64,000 nucleotides of DNA from an uncultured Acidobacteriota bacterium (GTDB taxonomy: Bacteria; Acidobacteriota; Terriglobia; Terriglobales; Acidobacteriaceae). The notes under the pieces were generated by a model. The model saw only the letters and a program-made list of their open reading frames with translations, did no database searches and had not been told where the DNA came from. Positions 20,290 to 43,725 of this stretch are shown in pieces. The stretch is from NCBI GenBank assembly GCA_903873705.1, contig CAIQPK010000002.1, positions 62,001-126,000 of the forward strand. Reading direction: 5' to 3'. How positions within the stretch are numbered: position 1 is the stretch's first letter; each line of letters starts with the position of its first letter. The translations under genes were made by a program, and so were the position numbers.

Positions 20290-21396
20290 TCAACCGGCCT
20301 TCGACAGACCCAGCGTCGCCACCGGCTGAGCGAGATGCCGCAGCACAGCAGGCGCAATCTTGCTCAGCGCAAGCGTCGCTTCCGCCCCACCAAGCCGGAC
20401 CGCCTCCTTCGGCATCCCGAATACCACGCACGTCTCTTCACTCTGCGCGACGGTGAAGGCTCCCTGGTTTCGCATCTCCAGCAACCCGCGCGCACCGTCG
20501 CTCCCCATGCCCGTCAGCAGAACGCCCACGGCCTTCTTTCGCGCCACCGACGCCACCGAGGTGAACAACACGTCCACCGACGGTCGGCTGAAGCAAACCG
20601 CCGGCCCTTCGCCCACCGCAACAAAATACCCGCGCGCCGACTGCTTCAGCGTCATGTGAAAATTCCCCGGTGCCACCAGCGCCCTGCCCGGGACAACCAG
20701 GTCGCCATCCACGGCTTCCTTTACTTCAATCTGGCACTCCTGGTTCAGCCGTTCGGCAAAGTGCGTGGTAAACACCGCCGGCATGTGCTGCACAATCAGT
20801 ACCGGTGGCGCGTTCGCCGGCAACCCGGCCAGCACCTCAGCCACCGCCGACGGCCCACCCGTAGACGCGCCAATCGCAATGATGCGGTCGCTGGCAAATC
20901 GCGCCGCACTTCCAACACCCGGCGCCGCAACCAACTGCGGCGACGCCTTCCTCGCGGCACCCGCGGGCGCAAACCGTCCCCGATTGCGCACCTGCGATGC
21001 CGCAGCCGTTCGAATTTTTTCAGCCAGTGAAAGCCCAAGGTCGCCCACCGAGCATGGCCCGTTCGGTTTGCATAGGATCTCCACCGCACCCGCCTGCAAA
21101 GCATCAATCGTCGCCGCAGCGCCCGCCGATCCCAGTGAGCTGATCACAATCACCGGCAGCGGTTTGAACTGCATCAGCTTTTTCAGGAACGTGATGCCAT
21201 CCATCCGCGGCATCTCGATGTCCAGCGTAATGACGTCCGGATTCAACGCCAGAATTTTATCCCGCGCAATGAACGCGTCCGGCGCCGTGCCCACAACCAC
21301 TATCTGTGGATCGGCAGCCAGCGCCTGCGTCAGCATCTTGCGCACCAGTGCGGAGTCGTCAACGATCAGTACCCTGATGGGCGCGGACGAACTCAT
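20290..21396 (-). CDS. cheB: Chemotaxis methylesterase/response regulator CheB (operon 2)
   Basis: 368 residues. Receiver domain (VDDSALVRKML, Asp59 in [12 protein letters not shown]), linker, then methylesterase with Ser in GASTGGPSAV, His in IVQHMPAVF and Asp in LTGMGSDGARG. The ATG at 21396 overlaps the stop of the cheX-like gene (ATGA). It closes operon 2. It is a clear paralogue of the cheB at 13906 but diverged through the linker. Confidence 0.95.
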   Translation of the reverse strand: MSSSAPIRVLIVDDSALVRKMLTQALAADPQIVVVGTAPDAFIARDKILALNPDVITLDIEMPRMDGITFLKKLMQFKPLPVIVISSLGSAGAAATIDALQAGAVEILCKPNGPCSVGDLGLSLAEKIRTAAASQVRNRGRFAPAGAARKASPQLVAAPGVGSAARFASDRIIAIGASTGGPSAVAEVLAGLPANAPPVLIVQHMPAVFTTHFAERLNQECQIEVKEAVDGDLVVPGRALVAPGNFHMTLKQSARGYFVAVGEGPAVCFSRPSVDVLFTSVASVARKKAVGVLLTGMGSDGARGLLEMRNQGAFTVAQSEETCVVFGMPKEAVRLGGAEATLALSKIAPAVLRHLAQPVATLGLSKAG

Positions 21397-21851
21397 GCGG
21401 CCGCCTGTAGAGCGCACGATACCGAAATCAAACCGCCGTCGATCGCGAAATTCGCCGTCGCCGTGCGGTGCATCGGCATCGCCAGCGTTGCCGAATGCGC
21501 AGCCACGTCACACAGCTGCGGCGTAGACAGCGGGCAAAGATGGTCAGGCGCATATGCCGAGAGCGTTGACCCCGCCAGCATGTTCGTCAGCTCGCACAAC
21601 AACTCCAGCTCGCGAATCATGCCCGGCTCATCGTCTTCGCCAAAGAACGCCTCGCATAGCAGCAGCAGCGCAGCGCGATCAATCGCCACCTTGAAACTGC
21701 CTTCTTCCGCGCCCGTGCAAAGCAGCGAACACGCCACGGCATCGCTATGCACCGCTCCGTGCGCTGGCTCGGCGTCTGCAAAAAACATCGTTTCCAGCAC
21801 GTTAGTTGAAGCTTCACGCAGCGTGGGCTGAAGTTCGGGCCTAGCTTTCAT
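21393..21851 (-). CDS. cheX: CheX-type CheY-P phosphatase
   Basis: 152 residues with the CheC/CheX/FliY core: an E-x2-N active-site motif in LELLCELTNMLAGST (about residues 85-98), preceded by a strand/helix region with FKVAIDRAALLLLC. CheX dephosphorylates CheY-P and adjusts signal decay. The start at 21851 overlaps the end of cheY by 11 bases, and its stop overlaps cheB. Only one E-x2-N motif is seen, as in CheX rather than CheC. Confidence 0.7.
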   Translation of the reverse strand: MKARPELQPTLREASTNVLETMFFADAEPAHGAVHSDAVACSLLCTGAEEGSFKVAIDRAALLLLCEAFFGEDDEPGMIRELELLCELTNMLAGSTLSAYAPDHLCPLSTPQLCDVAAHSATLAMPMHRTATANFAIDGGLISVSCALQAAA

Positions 21852-22233
21852 CGTCGGACGCCTCCCATAGCAACCGCACCACTTCTGTCTCCAGCGACTC
21901 CGGCGAAAACGGCTTCGCAATATATCCCTTCGCCCCCAGCGCGTGCATCTGCTCCTTGCGCTCGGTGCTCGAATCCGTAGACACCACCACCACGGGAATC
22001 TTCCGCATCGTTTCCCTCTTGGCAAGCTCCCCAACAAACACCGCGCCATCCATCACCGGCATGTTAATGTCAGAAAAAATGACCTCGACCTTGTGCTCGT
22101 CGAGCACACCAAGAGCTTCAAGTCCGTTTTCAGCTTCGTGAACCTGCCCAATTTCAAGGCTGGTCATGGATAGGGCGCGGCGAAGAAAACTTCGCATCGC
22201 CCGGGAGTCGTCGACAATCAATATGTCACGCAC
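21841..22233 (-). CDS. cheY: CheY-like response regulator (operon 2)
   Basis: 130-residue single receiver: VDDSRAMRSFL, phosphoacceptor Asp55 in IFSDINMPVMDG, VVVSTDS at the Thr/Ser position, and IAKPFSPE with the conserved Lys. GTG start (GTGCGTGAC), overlapping the cheD stop by 8 bases. It is the natural phosphoacceptor for the CheA of this operon and the likely substrate of the adjacent CheX. Confidence 0.92.
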   Translation of the reverse strand: MRDILIVDDSRAMRSFLRRALSMTSLEIGQVHEAENGLEALGVLDEHKVEVIFSDINMPVMDGAVFVGELAKRETMRKIPVVVVSTDSSTERKEQMHALGAKGYIAKPFSPESLETEVVRLLWEASDDES

Positions 22234-29818: not shown

Positions 29819-30181
29819 ATGGACATCCTCCTGGTCGACGACAGCAAAACGATGCGCATGATTGTGCAGCGCGCCATCCGTCAGGCCGGCTTTCGCGGCC
29901 TGTCGGTATGCGAAGCCGAGAACGGCGTGCAGGGTCTCGCGAAGGTAGCCTCCGAAAAGCCCAAGGTCATCCTCTCCGACTGGAACATGCCAGAAATGTC
30001 GGGCATCGAGTTCCTCACCCAGGTCCGCGCAGCCAACATCAAAACGCCCTTCGGCTTCATCACCTCGGAAGCCTCCGCGGAAATCAAGGAGCTCGCAATG
30101 AGTTCCGGCGCATCGTTCCTCATCACCAAACCCTTCAGCCCGGAAGACGTGCAGGACGCACTCACTCGAATACTGGGATAA
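29819..30181 (+). CDS. cheY: CheY-like response regulator
   Basis: 120-residue single receiver: MDILLVDDSKTMRMIVQRAI, phosphoacceptor Asp54 in ILSDWNMPEMSG, FITSEAS, and FLITKPFSPED with the conserved Lys. The NMPEMSG context is like motor-binding CheY proteins. Start taken at MDILLVDD; the frame is open upstream without homology. It is followed four bases later by a possible CheC/CheX-like gene, and is divergent from operon 2. Confidence 0.92.
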   Translation: MDILLVDDSKTMRMIVQRAIRQAGFRGLSVCEAENGVQGLAKVASEKPKVILSDWNMPEMSGIEFLTQVRAANIKTPFGFITSEASAEIKELAMSSGASFLITKPFSPEDVQDALTRILG

Positions 30182-30185
30182 AAAC

Positions 30186-30668
30186 ATGGCAGAAGTAACC
30201 GGTTACGCCCTCTCGCACCACCTCAGCGATCTGGTCGGACGCAAAGTAGAGTTCAAGCAGGCTACCGTCGCCGTCGAAACGGCCAGGGCCGTCTACGGCA
30301 TCTACAACGTGCTGCCAGACAACACTCCCGTCGTCGTCAAAACTGATCTCGCTCTCCTCGGCTCCTTCGCCGGCCTGCTCGTAGGCCTGCCCGACGAGGA
30401 AGTAAAGCAACGCCTCAAAGTCTCGCCGATCGAAGAGCTCCTGCGCGACGCCATGTACGAGGTCCTCAACATCACCTCCACCGTCGTCACCACCGAAGGC
30501 CGCGCCGTCTTCGGGCGAATGGTTACTGACGTCGCCTACGTCGACGGCCAGGCTGGCGAAGTCCTCAAGAAGCCGGGTCGTCGCAGCTACTTCAACGTCA
30601 GCGTCGAAGGCTACCAGGGCGGCCGGTTCACCGTGCTCTCGCCCATCCTCGCCGTAAAGATCGCATAG
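30186..30668 (+). CDS. Possible CheC/CheX-like protein next to cheY
   Basis: 160 residues. Not recognised as a standard family at full confidence. Two features point to the CheC/CheX/FliY fold: an E-x2-N motif in LLRDAMYEVLNITSTVV (about residues 85-101), placed as in the phosphatase helix, and an earlier helix (LALLGSFAGLLVGLPDEEVK) that could be the pseudo-symmetric counterpart without the motif. It begins four bases after cheY and ends at a terminator, so the two form a bicistron. It could dephosphorylate that CheY. An alternative is a motor- or c-di-GMP-related protein of unknown type. Confidence 0.5.
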   Translation: MAEVTGYALSHHLSDLVGRKVEFKQATVAVETARAVYGIYNVLPDNTPVVVKTDLALLGSFAGLLVGLPDEEVKQRLKVSPIEELLRDAMYEVLNITSTVVTTEGRAVFGRMVTDVAYVDGQAGEVLKKPGRRSYFNVSVEGYQGGRFTVLSPILAVKIA

Positions 30669-39734: not shown

Positions 39735-40604
39735 ATGTTTTCCATTGTTGGGGTTCTGGTGGTGTTCGGTTGCGTGATCGGCGGCTTCCTTATGGACAAG
39801 GGGAAGCTCGGCGTACTCATTCAACCGGCCGAGCTGGTCATTATCTTCGGCGCGGCCGTCGGCACCGTCCTCACAGCCAATCCCATCCATATCCTGAAGG
39901 GCATCGTCTCCGGCCTTATCGGCGTTCTCAAAGGGTCGCCCTTCACCAAAAAGCGCTACATCGAAACTCTCAAGATGTTGTTCGACCTGCTCGCCCGCGC
40001 GCGCAAGGAAGGCGCCATCGCCATCGAGGCGGACGTCGAAGAGCCGGACAAAAGCCCCACTTTCTCTAAATATCCGGCGTTCCTCAAAGACCATCACGCA
40101 CTCCACTTCGTCTGCGACACCCTCCGTATGGCCATCACCGGCGGCGTCAATCCCTTTGACGTCGATCAAATGATGGAGCTCGACATGGACACCCATCACC
40201 ACTCCGCCGCCGCCCCCAGCGCCTCGCTCACCACCATGGCCGACTCGCTTCCCGGCCTCGGTATCGTGGCCGCGGTGCTTGGCATCGTTGTCACCATGGG
40301 ATCACTTGGAGGGCCTCCCGAAGCCATCGGAGAAAAGGTCGCGGCCGCGCTCGTCGGCACCTTCCTCGGCATCCTGCTCTGCTACGGCATGATTGGCCCC
40401 ATAGCCTCCTACATGTCCAAAATCGTCGACGAGGAGCACAACTACTACTCCGTCTTGCGCGTCGTACTGCTCGCCTTCATCAAGGGCACCGCTCCCATCA
40501 TGGCGGTAGAAATGGGCCGCCGCGCTATCCCCGGCCACGTCAGGCCCACATTCGCCGAAGTCGAAAAGGCGTGCCGCGACAAGGGGGATGCGCCTGCTGC
40601 CTAG
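39735..40604 (+). CDS. motA: Flagellar motor stator protein MotA
   Basis: 289 residues, four membrane segments: near 1-20, 33-52, about 170-195 (LPGLGIVAAVLGIVVTMG) and 205-225 (VAAALVGTFLGILLCYGMIGPIA). The cytoplasmic loop carries the charged region that contacts FliG. With MotB it forms the proton-conducting stator in the inner membrane. GGAG lies upstream of the ATG. motB follows after 21 bases. Confidence 0.96.
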   Translation: MFSIVGVLVVFGCVIGGFLMDKGKLGVLIQPAELVIIFGAAVGTVLTANPIHILKGIVSGLIGVLKGSPFTKKRYIETLKMLFDLLARARKEGAIAIEADVEEPDKSPTFSKYPAFLKDHHALHFVCDTLRMAITGGVNPFDVDQMMELDMDTHHHSAAAPSASLTTMADSLPGLGIVAAVLGIVVTMGSLGGPPEAIGEKVAAALVGTFLGILLCYGMIGPIASYMSKIVDEEHNYYSVLRVVLLAFIKGTAPIMAVEMGRRAIPGHVRPTFAEVEKACRDKGDAPAA

Positions 40605-40625: not shown

Positions 40626-41459
40626 ATGGCAGACGCTCCCATCATCGTCATCAAGAAGAAAGGCGGTCACGCAGGCCATCACGGCCGCGCATGGAAGGTC
40701 GCCTATGCCGACTTCGTCACCGCCATGATGGCCTTCTTCCTCGTTATGTGGCTGCTCAGCAGCAGCAAGCCCGTTCAGGAAGCCGTCGGCGGTTACTTCC
40801 GCGACCCCAGTGGCACCGCCCAGAAAAAAGGCACCGAGCTCAACGGCGCCTCAGCCGCAAAAGAGGGAAAAGAAGACGACCTGAACGCTCTCAAACAGCA
40901 GCTCACGAAGTCGCTCGAAAAGATGTCGAACTTTGACAAACTGAAGGACCAGATAGAAATCACCATCACACCGGAGGGTCTGCGGATCGAAATGATGGAA
41001 GGCGCCAACGGCACCTTCTTTGAAAACGGTAAGTCTCAACCCACCCCGGCATTGCAGGATCTCCTCCAGGTCCTCTCCACCGAAATCGGCAAGCTCCCCA
41101 ACACGCTCTCCATCGAAGGCCACACCGACGCGAAGCCATTCTCCTCCTCCGGCGGCTACGGCAACTGGGAACTCTCCACCGATCGCGCCAACATCGCACG
41201 GCGCCTGATGGAAGGCAGTGGACTGAAGCCAGACCAGGTAGTGCAGGTGCGCGGGTTCGCCGACCGCAACCTGCGCAAACCCGCTCAACCCGAAGACCCC
41301 TCCAATCGCCGCGTCACCGTCATTGTTCAGGACATGCCCAAAGGAATGCAGCGCCCCTCCTTCGTCTTCAACGGAAAGCTTCCCGATGCGGCACTGCCTG
41401 CGCCAGCAACAGCGTCCGCCATAAAGAAGGAAGAAAAGCCGAAAGAAGAAAAAAAGTAG
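40626..41459 (+). CDS. motB: Flagellar motor stator protein MotB
   Basis: 277 residues. A short basic N-terminus, a single TM helix holding the proton-binding Asp29 (VAYADFVTAMMAFFLVMWLL), a plug/linker region, and a periplasmic OmpA-like peptidoglycan-binding domain (IEGHTDAKPF, NWELSTDRANIARRLM, GFADRNLR). A Lys/Glu-rich tail ends the protein. It anchors the stator to the cell wall. Asp-type, so proton-driven is more likely than sodium-driven. Confidence 0.96.
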   Translation: MADAPIIVIKKKGGHAGHHGRAWKVAYADFVTAMMAFFLVMWLLSSSKPVQEAVGGYFRDPSGTAQKKGTELNGASAAKEGKEDDLNALKQQLTKSLEKMSNFDKLKDQIEITITPEGLRIEMMEGANGTFFENGKSQPTPALQDLLQVLSTEIGKLPNTLSIEGHTDAKPFSSSGGYGNWELSTDRANIARRLMEGSGLKPDQVVQVRGFADRNLRKPAQPEDPSNRRVTVIVQDMPKGMQRPSFVFNGKLPDAALPAPATASAIKKEEKPKEEKK

Positions 41460-41618: not shown

Positions 41619-43340
41619 ATGACCAGGCAAACCAGCGAGCACATTGCCGGCCTTCTCGAGCAAGCCAGGCGAGAACTGCAACAGCTCGCACGCCATAGCG
41701 ACCAGCAGATCGAAGGACTGTCGCGCGGTTTTCAGCAACTCGCCAGCTTCACTCAGCAGACGTCGTCGCTCGCTGCGGCCACCGTCGACCGTCTCGAAAG
41801 TGAAAGCGTCCGCTCCGTGCTCCCCAAAGTTCAAGCCCTCGGCATAACCGCCCGGGCTATCTTTGAGGAACGCCTCAACGCCACCACCGGAATCCTCTCG
41901 GCCATCGAAAGCGAAGCCCGCCTCCTCCGCCAGTTCTCGCTCGTCACCCGGCGCCAGGCCAGCATCGCGCTCAAGACATCCGTTCTCACCATGTACACCA
42001 ACATCGAGGTTGGCCGTCTCGGCTCCGAAGGCGCCGGCTTCCAACATCTTGCCGAAACTCTTTCCGCGTTCTCCAAATCCCTCACCGCCGATACCGAAGA
42101 ACTCGTCCTCCACATCGACTCGCGCAAGCCGGCACTCGAAGCTACCCGCCGCGCACTCTCCGCTGAAGTGCCGCACCTGCAAGCCGAGTTCGTCCGCATC
42201 GACGCCGGCCTCGAAGCCGACACCGCCGCGCTGCAAGCGGGGCTCGACCAGCTCACTGAAGCTCCTGTCCAGTTCCGCCTCTCGCTCGACGACATCGCCC
42301 AGCAGGTCGCCCAGGTCGTCTCCGCCGTCCAGGCGCACGACATCACCCGTCAGCAGCTTGAGCACGTCGAAGAAGCCCTGACGCAAAGCGCGACCGCCAT
42401 CCGTCGGCCCCGTCCTGCTGACCTTGCCCGCGCCTACGCCACCATCAAAGTGCAGCTATATCAGCTGCAGAACATCAAGGCTACCGTAGCTCAGTGGACC
42501 ACGCAGATTCGCGACTGCACCCGTGTCATCATGAACATCAGTGCCTCCGGCATCGCCGGCATCAGCCCTCTCGTCCTCGCACAGGAGCGCGAAGTCGCCG
42601 CCCGGCTCGCGCACATCAACCAGTTACAGAGCGAAGGCCGCGGCTGCACCGAACGCATCCGCTCCAACGTCGGCAGCCGCTCCGCCCTGCTCAACCTCGT
42701 CGCCGAGCACACCGAAACCTCGCGCTCGGTCCGCCACCAGCTTCACCTGCTCTCGCTCAACTCCATCATCGAAGCCACTCGCCTCGGCTCCCAGGCCGAC
42801 GCCGTCTTCGAACTCGCCAAGAGCATCTCCGACATCTCCACGGACTGGGGCAAGGTCACCGCCCAATCCGAAGCTGCCATGCAGGAAATTCTGGAGCTCG
42901 TCACGCAGACCAGTGGGATGATGCAGATCTTCTCTGACGACGGTCACGAGCACCTCGCCGCCGCCGAAGCCCAAACCCGCATCGGTCTCGCGGATCTCCA
43001 CACCACCGCTTCCTTCGCCGCGCAACAGGCCAGCGAACTCCAAGCCATCACCACAACCATGCAATCCACCAGCACGGCGGTCGACGCCCAAAGCCACGCG
43101 CTCGACGTCACGTACGCCATCGTCGACAACGTACTCGAATCGCTCGAAACGTTGAAGCAGCAACTCAAACACGAAAGCCCCAGCGCATCAACATCCATCA
43201 ATCCCGCCGAGATCGAGCATCTCCTCTCGCCCTCATACACCACCGGCATCGAGCGCGATATCCTGCACGCCGCCCTCCACGGCCAGCCACTCCCCATCGC
43301 TCAGGAAGTCTTCACCGGCAACAGCGTCGAGCTCTTCTGA
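41619..43340 (+). CDS. Soluble, degenerate chemoreceptor-like protein
   Basis: 573 residues, helical throughout, with no transmembrane segment or HAMP domain. Near residues 380-415 it has LHLLSLNSIIEATRLGSQAD, which aligns with the MCP hairpin tip ([15 protein letters not shown]) but lacks the canonical Ala-Ala and Gly-Glu positions. Flanking heptad-rich helices suggest an antiparallel coiled coil. It ends HGQPLPIAQEVFTGNSVELF, with no tethering pentapeptide of the usual form. It is followed by cheY 22 bases after its stop and preceded by motAB. Possibly a cytoplasmic receptor or a CheA/CheW-independent scaffold. Not assigned to a named family. Confidence 0.65.
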   Translation: MTRQTSEHIAGLLEQARRELQQLARHSDQQIEGLSRGFQQLASFTQQTSSLAAATVDRLESESVRSVLPKVQALGITARAIFEERLNATTGILSAIESEARLLRQFSLVTRRQASIALKTSVLTMYTNIEVGRLGSEGAGFQHLAETLSAFSKSLTADTEELVLHIDSRKPALEATRRALSAEVPHLQAEFVRIDAGLEADTAALQAGLDQLTEAPVQFRLSLDDIAQQVAQVVSAVQAHDITRQQLEHVEEALTQSATAIRRPRPADLARAYATIKVQLYQLQNIKATVAQWTTQIRDCTRVIMNISASGIAGISPLVLAQEREVAARLAHINQLQSEGRGCTERIRSNVGSRSALLNLVAEHTETSRSVRHQLHLLSLNSIIEATRLGSQADAVFELAKSISDISTDWGKVTAQSEAAMQEILELVTQTSGMMQIFSDDGHEHLAAAEAQTRIGLADLHTTASFAAQQASELQAITTTMQSTSTAVDAQSHALDVTYAIVDNVLESLETLKQQLKHESPSASTSINPAEIEHLLSPSYTTGIERDILHAALHGQPLPIAQEVFTGNSVELF

Positions 43341-43362: not shown

Positions 43363-43725
43363 ATGAAACGCATCCTCACCGTAGACGACTCCGCCAGCAT
43401 CCGACAGATGGTTACCTTCACCCTCCGCGGAGCAGGTTACGAAGTAGCCGAAGCTGTCGACGGCCGCGACGGCCTCGCCAAAGTCGCCGCCTCAAAATTC
43501 GACCTCGTCATCACCGACCTCAACATGCCCAACGTCGACGGCATCCAGATGATCGCCGGCACCCGCAAAGTCCCCGGCTACGCCTTCACCCCCATCCTCA
43601 TGCTCACCACCGAATCGCAAGCCGAAAAGAAAGACGCCGGTCGAAAAGCCGGAGCCACCGGCTGGATAGTAAAGCCTTTCAACGCCGCCCAACTCCTCGC
43701 TGCTGCCCAGAAACTCATTAGATAG
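43363..43725 (+). CDS. cheY: CheY-like response regulator
   Basis: 120-residue receiver: MKRILTVDDSASIRQMV, phosphoacceptor Asp52 in VITDLNMPNVDG, LMLTTES and WIVKPFNAAQL with the conserved Lys. LTTES and the C-terminal pattern are like motor-binding CheY proteins. It directly follows the soluble receptor-like gene and is near motAB, making it a good candidate for the CheY that binds FliM; inference. Confidence 0.94.
   Translation: MKRILTVDDSASIRQMVTFTLRGAGYEVAEAVDGRDGLAKVAASKFDLVITDLNMPNVDGIQMIAGTRKVPGYAFTPILMLTTESQAEKKDAGRKAGATGWIVKPFNAAQLLAAAQKLIR

Follow-up and report, generated by a model that had tools for sequence, protein, structure and literature searches.

Removal of the phosphoryl group from CheY~P helps to set the speed of chemotaxis and is carried out by CheZ as well as by the CheX, CheC and FliY proteins, whose fold is unrelated. 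E. coli CheZ is a protein of 214 amino acids in which residues 143 and 147, checked in the sequence to be Asp and Gln, are what we take to be the catalytic pair; its tip-to-Asp distance is about 35 residues. The DxxxQ motif of CheZ and the ExxN motif of CheX are both reported to coordinate the water molecule that attacks phospho-CheY (PMC3510030). CheT of Sinorhizobium meliloti has been described as a cryptic phosphatase of CheY that resembles CheZ, with a DXXXQ motif and no significant homology to known chemotaxis proteins (PMC12654446). By analogy, this alphaproteobacterial enzyme is the closest conceptual precedent for the protein described here; the likeness is drawn from its description, in the passages of which MCP hairpins go unmentioned (PMC12654446). 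A soluble MCP hairpin is found in the Thermotoga maritima chemoreceptor 3g67/3g6b, a 213-residue chain with an ordinary tip (LALNATIEAARAG) and, unlike the protein described here, without a second hairpin.

The window analysed was a stretch of 64,000 nucleotides from an uncultured Acidobacteriota bacterium. An open reading frame at 41619..43340 on the + strand (ATG start, no internal stop) encodes a protein of 573 amino acids, P0001, which we consider, from sequence comparison, to be probably a CheZ-type phosphatase for CheY~P, built as a single-chain MCP pseudo-dimer. As a sequence-only reading of the window had it, the gene lies between motAB and cheY: MotA (39735..40604, +) and MotB (40626..41459, +), both recognised by Pfam, are encoded upstream, and a CheY (43363..43725, +; Pfam Response_reg, E 1.5e-25), the proposed substrate, starts 22 nt past the P0001 stop codon, a linkage that is kept in relatives. 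The same reading saw no HAMP or recognised sensor domain, in agreement with Pfam, which gave none at E <= 10. AF2 predicted an all-helical protein (pLDDT 90.1, pTM 0.71) with a low-confidence tail. The claim that there is no membrane segment could be kept in part: P0001 is likely soluble, short of proven, because its highest 19-residue Kyte–Doolittle mean (1.74, aa 303–321) lies marginally over the classic limit of 1.6 and the AF2 model places a helix boundary there (helices 266–305 and 310–352). Plasmid and IMG/VR searches returned no relative of P0001.

With P0001 as sole query, matches were obtained in 3 of 61 related genomes, the window's own counted, and in 8 of 395 genomes drawn over the phylum. 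The seven non-own matches in the phylum draw comprised a sole long form (L005), three shorter proteins with D-x-x-x-Q blocks (L004, L006 and L009) and three proteins resembling other MCPs (L007, L008 and L010). A contig scan with a four-sequence profile (A1) gave 179 relatives, from which 80 loci were kept; because the scan pattern was anchored on D-I-T-R-Q, conservation of that block among these first-scan loci is by construction. The scan relatives, mostly from MAGs, came from Acidobacteria, Geobacter and other deltaproteobacterial groups, Nitrospirae, Ignavibacteria and Bacteroidetes, and complete long forms were mostly 570–730 amino acids. A full-length profile, itself built from motif-anchored rows, was run against 296 genomes from the phylum of a Geobacter record (G453), presumably Desulfobacterota, and yielded 30 loci, taken as one per genome, with further full-length matches beyond these; 5 were at least 95% identical to first-scan loci and 25 were new (<95% identical to earlier sets). 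A C-terminal-half profile (A4) was run against 295 genomes from the phylum of G456 (Nitrospirae) and 396 from the window's own phylum, and 35 of the 60 returned loci (L148–L177 and L179–L183) were examined, giving 18 long forms (13 new under the same 95% identity criterion) and 17 short forms. Within the window's own phylum only two full-length-type matches stood out in this search (G000 and G226), and the long form is thus sparse there. A search of titles and abstract openings, with subscription journals mostly outside its reach, returned no paper apparently describing such a protein, and neither did a literature search by motif strings.

The MCP-like hairpin of the sequence-only reading was borne out. 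Pfam MCPsignal matched P0001 in two stretches (E 5.6e-4; 20.2 bits, below the gathering score of 34.6), and the same domain was found at E <= 1 in 53 of 56 aligned relatives (best 7e-24), with all eight family members that were run singly exceeding the cut-off. Using phmmer against the PDB, residues 31–237 matched the soluble Thermotoga chemoreceptor 3g67 (E 7e-4), and a second region starting at residue 368 or 369 and ending at 427 matched the MCP fragments 4jpb_B and 3ur1_C (E 0.019). Comparison of MCPs with the family by hhalign gave 98.2% and E 4e-14. Judged by sequence, the MCP likeness of P0001 is above chance.

One hairpin tip had been described earlier, and two were found. When profiles of the two halves were compared by hhalign, they matched tip on tip over 257 columns (98.7%, E 2e-16), and the protein is therefore read as an MCP-type hairpin duplicated within one chain. 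Half 1 (aa 1–262; 41619..42404, +) carries tip 1 (aa 127–141, TNIEVGRLGSEGAGF; 41997..42041, +; family consensus TxIESARLGxxxxGF) and a CheZ-like block, and half 2 (aa 263–522; 42405..43184, +), in which DxxxQ is not conserved, carries tip 2 (aa 380–391, LNSIIEATRLGS; 42756..42791, +), the one that had been seen. Half 1 was also modelled alone (AF2, aa 8–268; pLDDT 92.7, pTM 0.60), and all 12 Foldseek hits to this model at E <= 0.001 were chemoreceptors. Foldseek E-values were relied on here because SMC coiled coils tie with chemoreceptors when ranked by Z; the half-1 model aligned with 3g67/3g6b over 212 of 212 residues (rmsd 2.9) at a Z of 12.2 that is tied with some unrelated coiled coils, and the Z of 10.2 for half 2 against the MCP 2ch7 is within helical-bundle noise. 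A fold search with the whole model gave no match at E <= 0.001, with unrelated helical proteins and MCPs on top, and was left out of the functional argument. CheZ was absent among the listed rows of the fold searches, which was not counted against a likeness to CheZ.

The tips are altered in most members of the family. E385, R388 and N381 are conserved MCP tip residues in Tsr numbering; at tip 2, the position equivalent to E385 is Lys in 32 of the 56 aligned sequences and Glu in 7, that of R388 is His in 37 and Arg in 12, and the Asn of tip 1 is missing from most rows. The earlier statement that key tip residues differ is supported across the family; P0001 itself keeps Glu and Arg at both tips and has no Asn at tip 1.

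Below tip 1, the segment QAHDITRQQLEHV aligned to the catalytic DxxxQ of CheZ by profile comparison (E 8e-8). It falls within a CheZ-like block, QAHDITRQQLEH (aa 238–249; 42330..42365, +), whose proposed catalytic residues, put forward from profile comparison and conservation, are D241 and Q245. An hhalign comparison of eight CheZ sequences with the family alignment of 56 rows (A2) gave 94.5% and E 8.3e-8 over 52 columns, with DLTGQ of E. coli CheZ falling over DITRQ of P0001. This match scored 60.6; the best of 100 column shuffles scored 19.4, the reversed alignment 25.7, and a control alignment of 32 ordinary MCPs, when compared with CheZ, 28.4. A CheZ HMM scored above 10 bits with 97 family domains, repeats included, of which 96 covered the catalytic states, and Asp and Gln stood at those states in 94; not one of the 29 MCP domains scoring above 10 bits extended over these states. 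Since the unfiltered CheZ HMM matches ordinary MCPs too, at similar scores, it was used solely to locate the Asp and Gln.

The match to CheZ becomes apparent at the level of the family. Pfam CheZ (PF04344) was listed at E <= 1 for 22 of the 56 members (best 3.5e-6) and not for the other 34, and for 4 of the 8 run singly; at the same threshold it was listed neither for the ordinary MCP L007 nor for the shorter L004, which has the block. Members shown with bit scores stayed below the cut-off of 30.7, the best scores being 26.5 and 26.1, and P0001 alone gave no Pfam CheZ match at E <= 10. A direct comparison of the CheZ HMM with P0001 gave 2.4 bits at the motif and 5.4 bits elsewhere. Bare DxxxQ occurs three times in P0001 against 1.9 expected, and because this is near chance frequency the motif is meaningful through its conservation alone. 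At family-profile level, the sequence comparisons place the DxxxQ pair in a CheZ-like context. By the same comparisons P0001 is MCP-derived, lacks receptor inputs and fails as a member of the CheZ family. The family shares with CheZ a DxxxQ in a helix, preceded by F[QH] in most members and by AH in P0001; it differs in its size (mostly 570–730 amino acids), in having MCP-type hairpins with tips and an internal duplication in which one block is conserved, and in a tip-to-Asp distance of about 111 residues, far longer than that of CheZ.

In alignment A2 the invariant positions are E130, F141, Q238, D241, T243, R244, Q245, E248, Q279, N381, Y540, E545 and F573, and their densest run is the DxxxQ block, not a tip. 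D241 and Q245 are found in 56 of 56 rows of this motif-anchored set. D241, R244 and Q245 were also present in 30 of 30 loci from the full-length profile, with T243 in 26, and Asp and Gln stood at 241 and 245 in all 18 long forms found with the C-terminal-half profile. Every long-form copy for which the column was read thus has the Asp and the Gln. In half 2 the corresponding positions are variable: the equivalent of D241 is Glu in 20, Arg in 6 and Lys in 6 among mixed residues in the 56 rows, and that of Q245 is Glu in 12, Gly in 8, Ala in 7 and Gln in 7. In P0001 the half-2 equivalent, identified from the alignment of the two halves, is DVTYA (aa 496–500; 43104..43118, +), from which the Gln is absent.

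The Glu of tip 1 lies 111 residues from D241 in 44 of 56 rows. At the start of half 2, Q279 (56/56 and 30/30) and Q282 (51/56 and 28/30) form a second conserved patch (42453..42464, +), and Q279 lies mostly 108–110 residues before the Asn of tip 2. This spacing resembles that of D241 to tip 1 and would therefore bring Q279 near D241 in a paired bundle, the two patches facing each other. Towards the C terminus, the alignment has a conserved YTTGIER segment (aa 540–546; 43236..43256, +; YTMxSER in the family), and the chain finishes in a tail ending NSVELF (43314..43337, +; GDNVELF in the family; pLDDT < 50), a candidate CheY- or CheR-binding peptide. Most complete long forms end in NVELF-like letters, which lie outside the search pattern. 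This conserved, low-confidence tail is like the tails of CheZ but shorter; an acidic and hydrophobic conserved C-terminal end and a neighbouring partner CheY are common to CheZ and the family. The NWETF pentapeptide is known to tether CheR (PMC2577667), and the family ending NVELF (SVELF in the window, 43323–43337) was seen to resemble it, minus the aromatic second residue.

The 17 short forms among the A4 loci examined (314–452 amino acids) all carry an FQDxxxQ block, with Gln at the position of H240, and 15 of them combine it with an ordinary-looking MCP tip. In 9 of the 12 that were measured the tip Leu lies 116 residues, and hence the Glu 111 residues, before the Asp; the other three gave, in one case each, a distance of 114 residues, no recognisable tip and a pattern match elsewhere. 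Pfam CheZ was found at E <= 0.1 in 7 of 10 short forms, the best shown (25.8 bits) being under the cut-off. Among these proteins, L165–L177, L182 and L183 have the ordinary-looking tip and FQDxxxQ, often with an NVTLF- or NVELF-like end. The 19-residue hydropathy peak exceeded 1.6 in 9 of the 12 measured, L180 and L181 included. It is possible, from their sequences, that the short forms are membrane-anchored receptor-phosphatases.

Gene neighbourhoods were compared at 113 long-form loci (106 distinct), with approximate labels assigned by phmmer using the window proteins and by simple ORF picking. Among the 95 distinct loci that had 900 nt or more of downstream sequence, 71 had a CheY on the same strand no further than two genes downstream; for CheA, looked for up to four genes downstream where 3.2 kb or more was available, the count was 49 of 58. 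The 24 loci lacking such a CheY were of several sorts: in some, CheY, STAS or CheA lay upstream or on the opposite strand, others had a STAS or CheA gene but no CheY was called, and a few were without any che gene. A frequent order was family gene–STAS–cheY–cheA; in L011, L013 and L018 the family gene is followed by cheY and then cheA, and the window copy has its gene–cheY pair by motAB instead. In many of L021–L090 and L102–L131 the gene for a STAS protein (about 95–150 amino acids) separates the family gene from cheY, which is not so at the window copy; the STAS identity was taken from Pfam for one protein, that of L005.

How P0001 would act can be proposed from these data. The two hairpins would pack against each other in one chain as the two subunits of an MCP dimer do; D241 and Q245 would act on CheY~P like the CheZ pair, Q245 positioning the water for attack; CheY~P would be caught by the VELF tail, as it is by the tail of CheZ; and the tips would either no longer build a normal CheA–CheW core unit or build one solely to keep the enzyme close to the kinase. 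The sequence-only reading had put forward a degenerate, uncoupled receptor or a passive scaffold that forms a cytoplasmic cluster of its own or keeps CheY close to the motor, with no catalytic role, and it had seen neither the internal duplication, nor the CheZ-like block rich in family invariants, nor the conserved tail. Its tie to CheY is supported and its scaffold for CheY comes close to the best reading. The altered tips of most relatives, the MCP homology of both halves and the position of the gene between motAB and cheY all agree with this account. A protein without catalysis now appears unlikely: the densest invariant run is the DxxxQ block and not a tip, the match of this block to CheZ is absent from the ordinary MCPs tested, and an invariant Asp and Gln are better explained by a phosphatase. 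Because it carries the two CheZ catalytic residues, P0001 is more probably a switch that turns CheY off than a receptor that has lost its function, and the relatives in several soil and sediment bacterial groups suggest the same.

Two further accounts were considered. P0001 might join arrays through its tips, the state of which would regulate phosphatase activity over the 111-residue distance; the ordinary tip, FQDxxxQ block and equal spacing of most short forms are consistent with this, as is the frequent presence of cheA, cheW and mcp near the long form, but most long forms are without the tip 2 Glu/Arg pair and the tip 1 Asn, and P0001 has no sensor domain; we hold such array control to be quite improbable for this protein. 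Alternatively, H240-D241-xxx-Q245, which is reminiscent of the HisKA_3 kinase H-box, could accept a phosphoryl group from CheA or CheY on its His. The order HDxxxQ is shared with NarX, a HisKA_3 kinase that needs DxxxQ for its phosphatase activity (PMC3510030). However, P0001 gave no HisKA_3 match at E <= 10 and no ATPase domain in Pfam, and the His is not invariant: Gln stands in its place in 2 of the 56 aligned rows, in 4 of the 30 loci from the full-length profile and in all 17 short forms, and in these the Asp and Gln are unchanged. We regard phosphotransfer as highly improbable. Nor is P0001 of the CheX or CheC kind, since CheX uses ExxN (PMC3510030) and Pfam found neither domain in P0001 at E <= 10. 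Should the proposed CheZ-like phosphatase be active, a receptor hairpin can be an enzyme, and look-alikes of degenerate MCPs may be signal terminators. More tentatively, the long and short forms may, from their sequences, belong to a widespread receptor-phosphatase class of hairpins in which about 111 residues separate the tip from a CheZ-type active site. The class would comprise single-hairpin forms with an ordinary tip and duplicated single-chain forms with altered tips, through which the state of the array could directly govern the removal of CheY~P in lineages regarded as lacking CheZ; we hold this broader view to be conceivable but rather doubtful.

Other CheY phosphatases were looked for in 29 carrier genomes, a number that holds repeats, as judged by identical family proteins (G027/G451 in all three lists, G032/G450 in the CheZ list). 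CheX was found at E <= 0.001 in 27 of 29 (25 over the cut-off), CheC in 15 and CheZ over the cut-off in 7; nine were CheZ-positive in all, G462 and G464 solely via the family protein itself. The idea that the family replaces other phosphatases was unsupported by these counts. The window's own genome had no CheZ match, and its che cluster encodes a CheX-like protein (21393–21857, −; Pfam CheX 27.5 bits, cut-off 27), so that with CheX in 27 of 29 carriers no phosphatase is "missing" here. FliG was matched in 28 of the 61 related genomes, and the family gene was present in 2 of these 28 and without a match in 26; one carrier (G032, locus L002; 98% completeness) had no FliG match, and the CheY of that genome may therefore not act on a flagellum. 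Given these CheX and FliG patterns, the family protein would not be the only phosphatase in this group, and its gene is not tied to flagella there. At L021, L023, L032 and L075 of the Geobacter group, the family gene stands ahead of a STAS gene, cheY and cheA and the carriers have no CheZ match; CheX and CheC were matched in all three of these that were searched, so a P0001-type enzyme, if active, would be a candidate additional, not sole, CheY phosphatase there. Within the window, the CheX-like protein lies between a CheY and CheB and contains ELTN, an ExxN. A 160-amino acid protein at 30186–30668 (+), without a Pfam match at E <= 0.01, directly follows a CheY-like gene (29822–30181) and contains EVLN, a possible ExxN.
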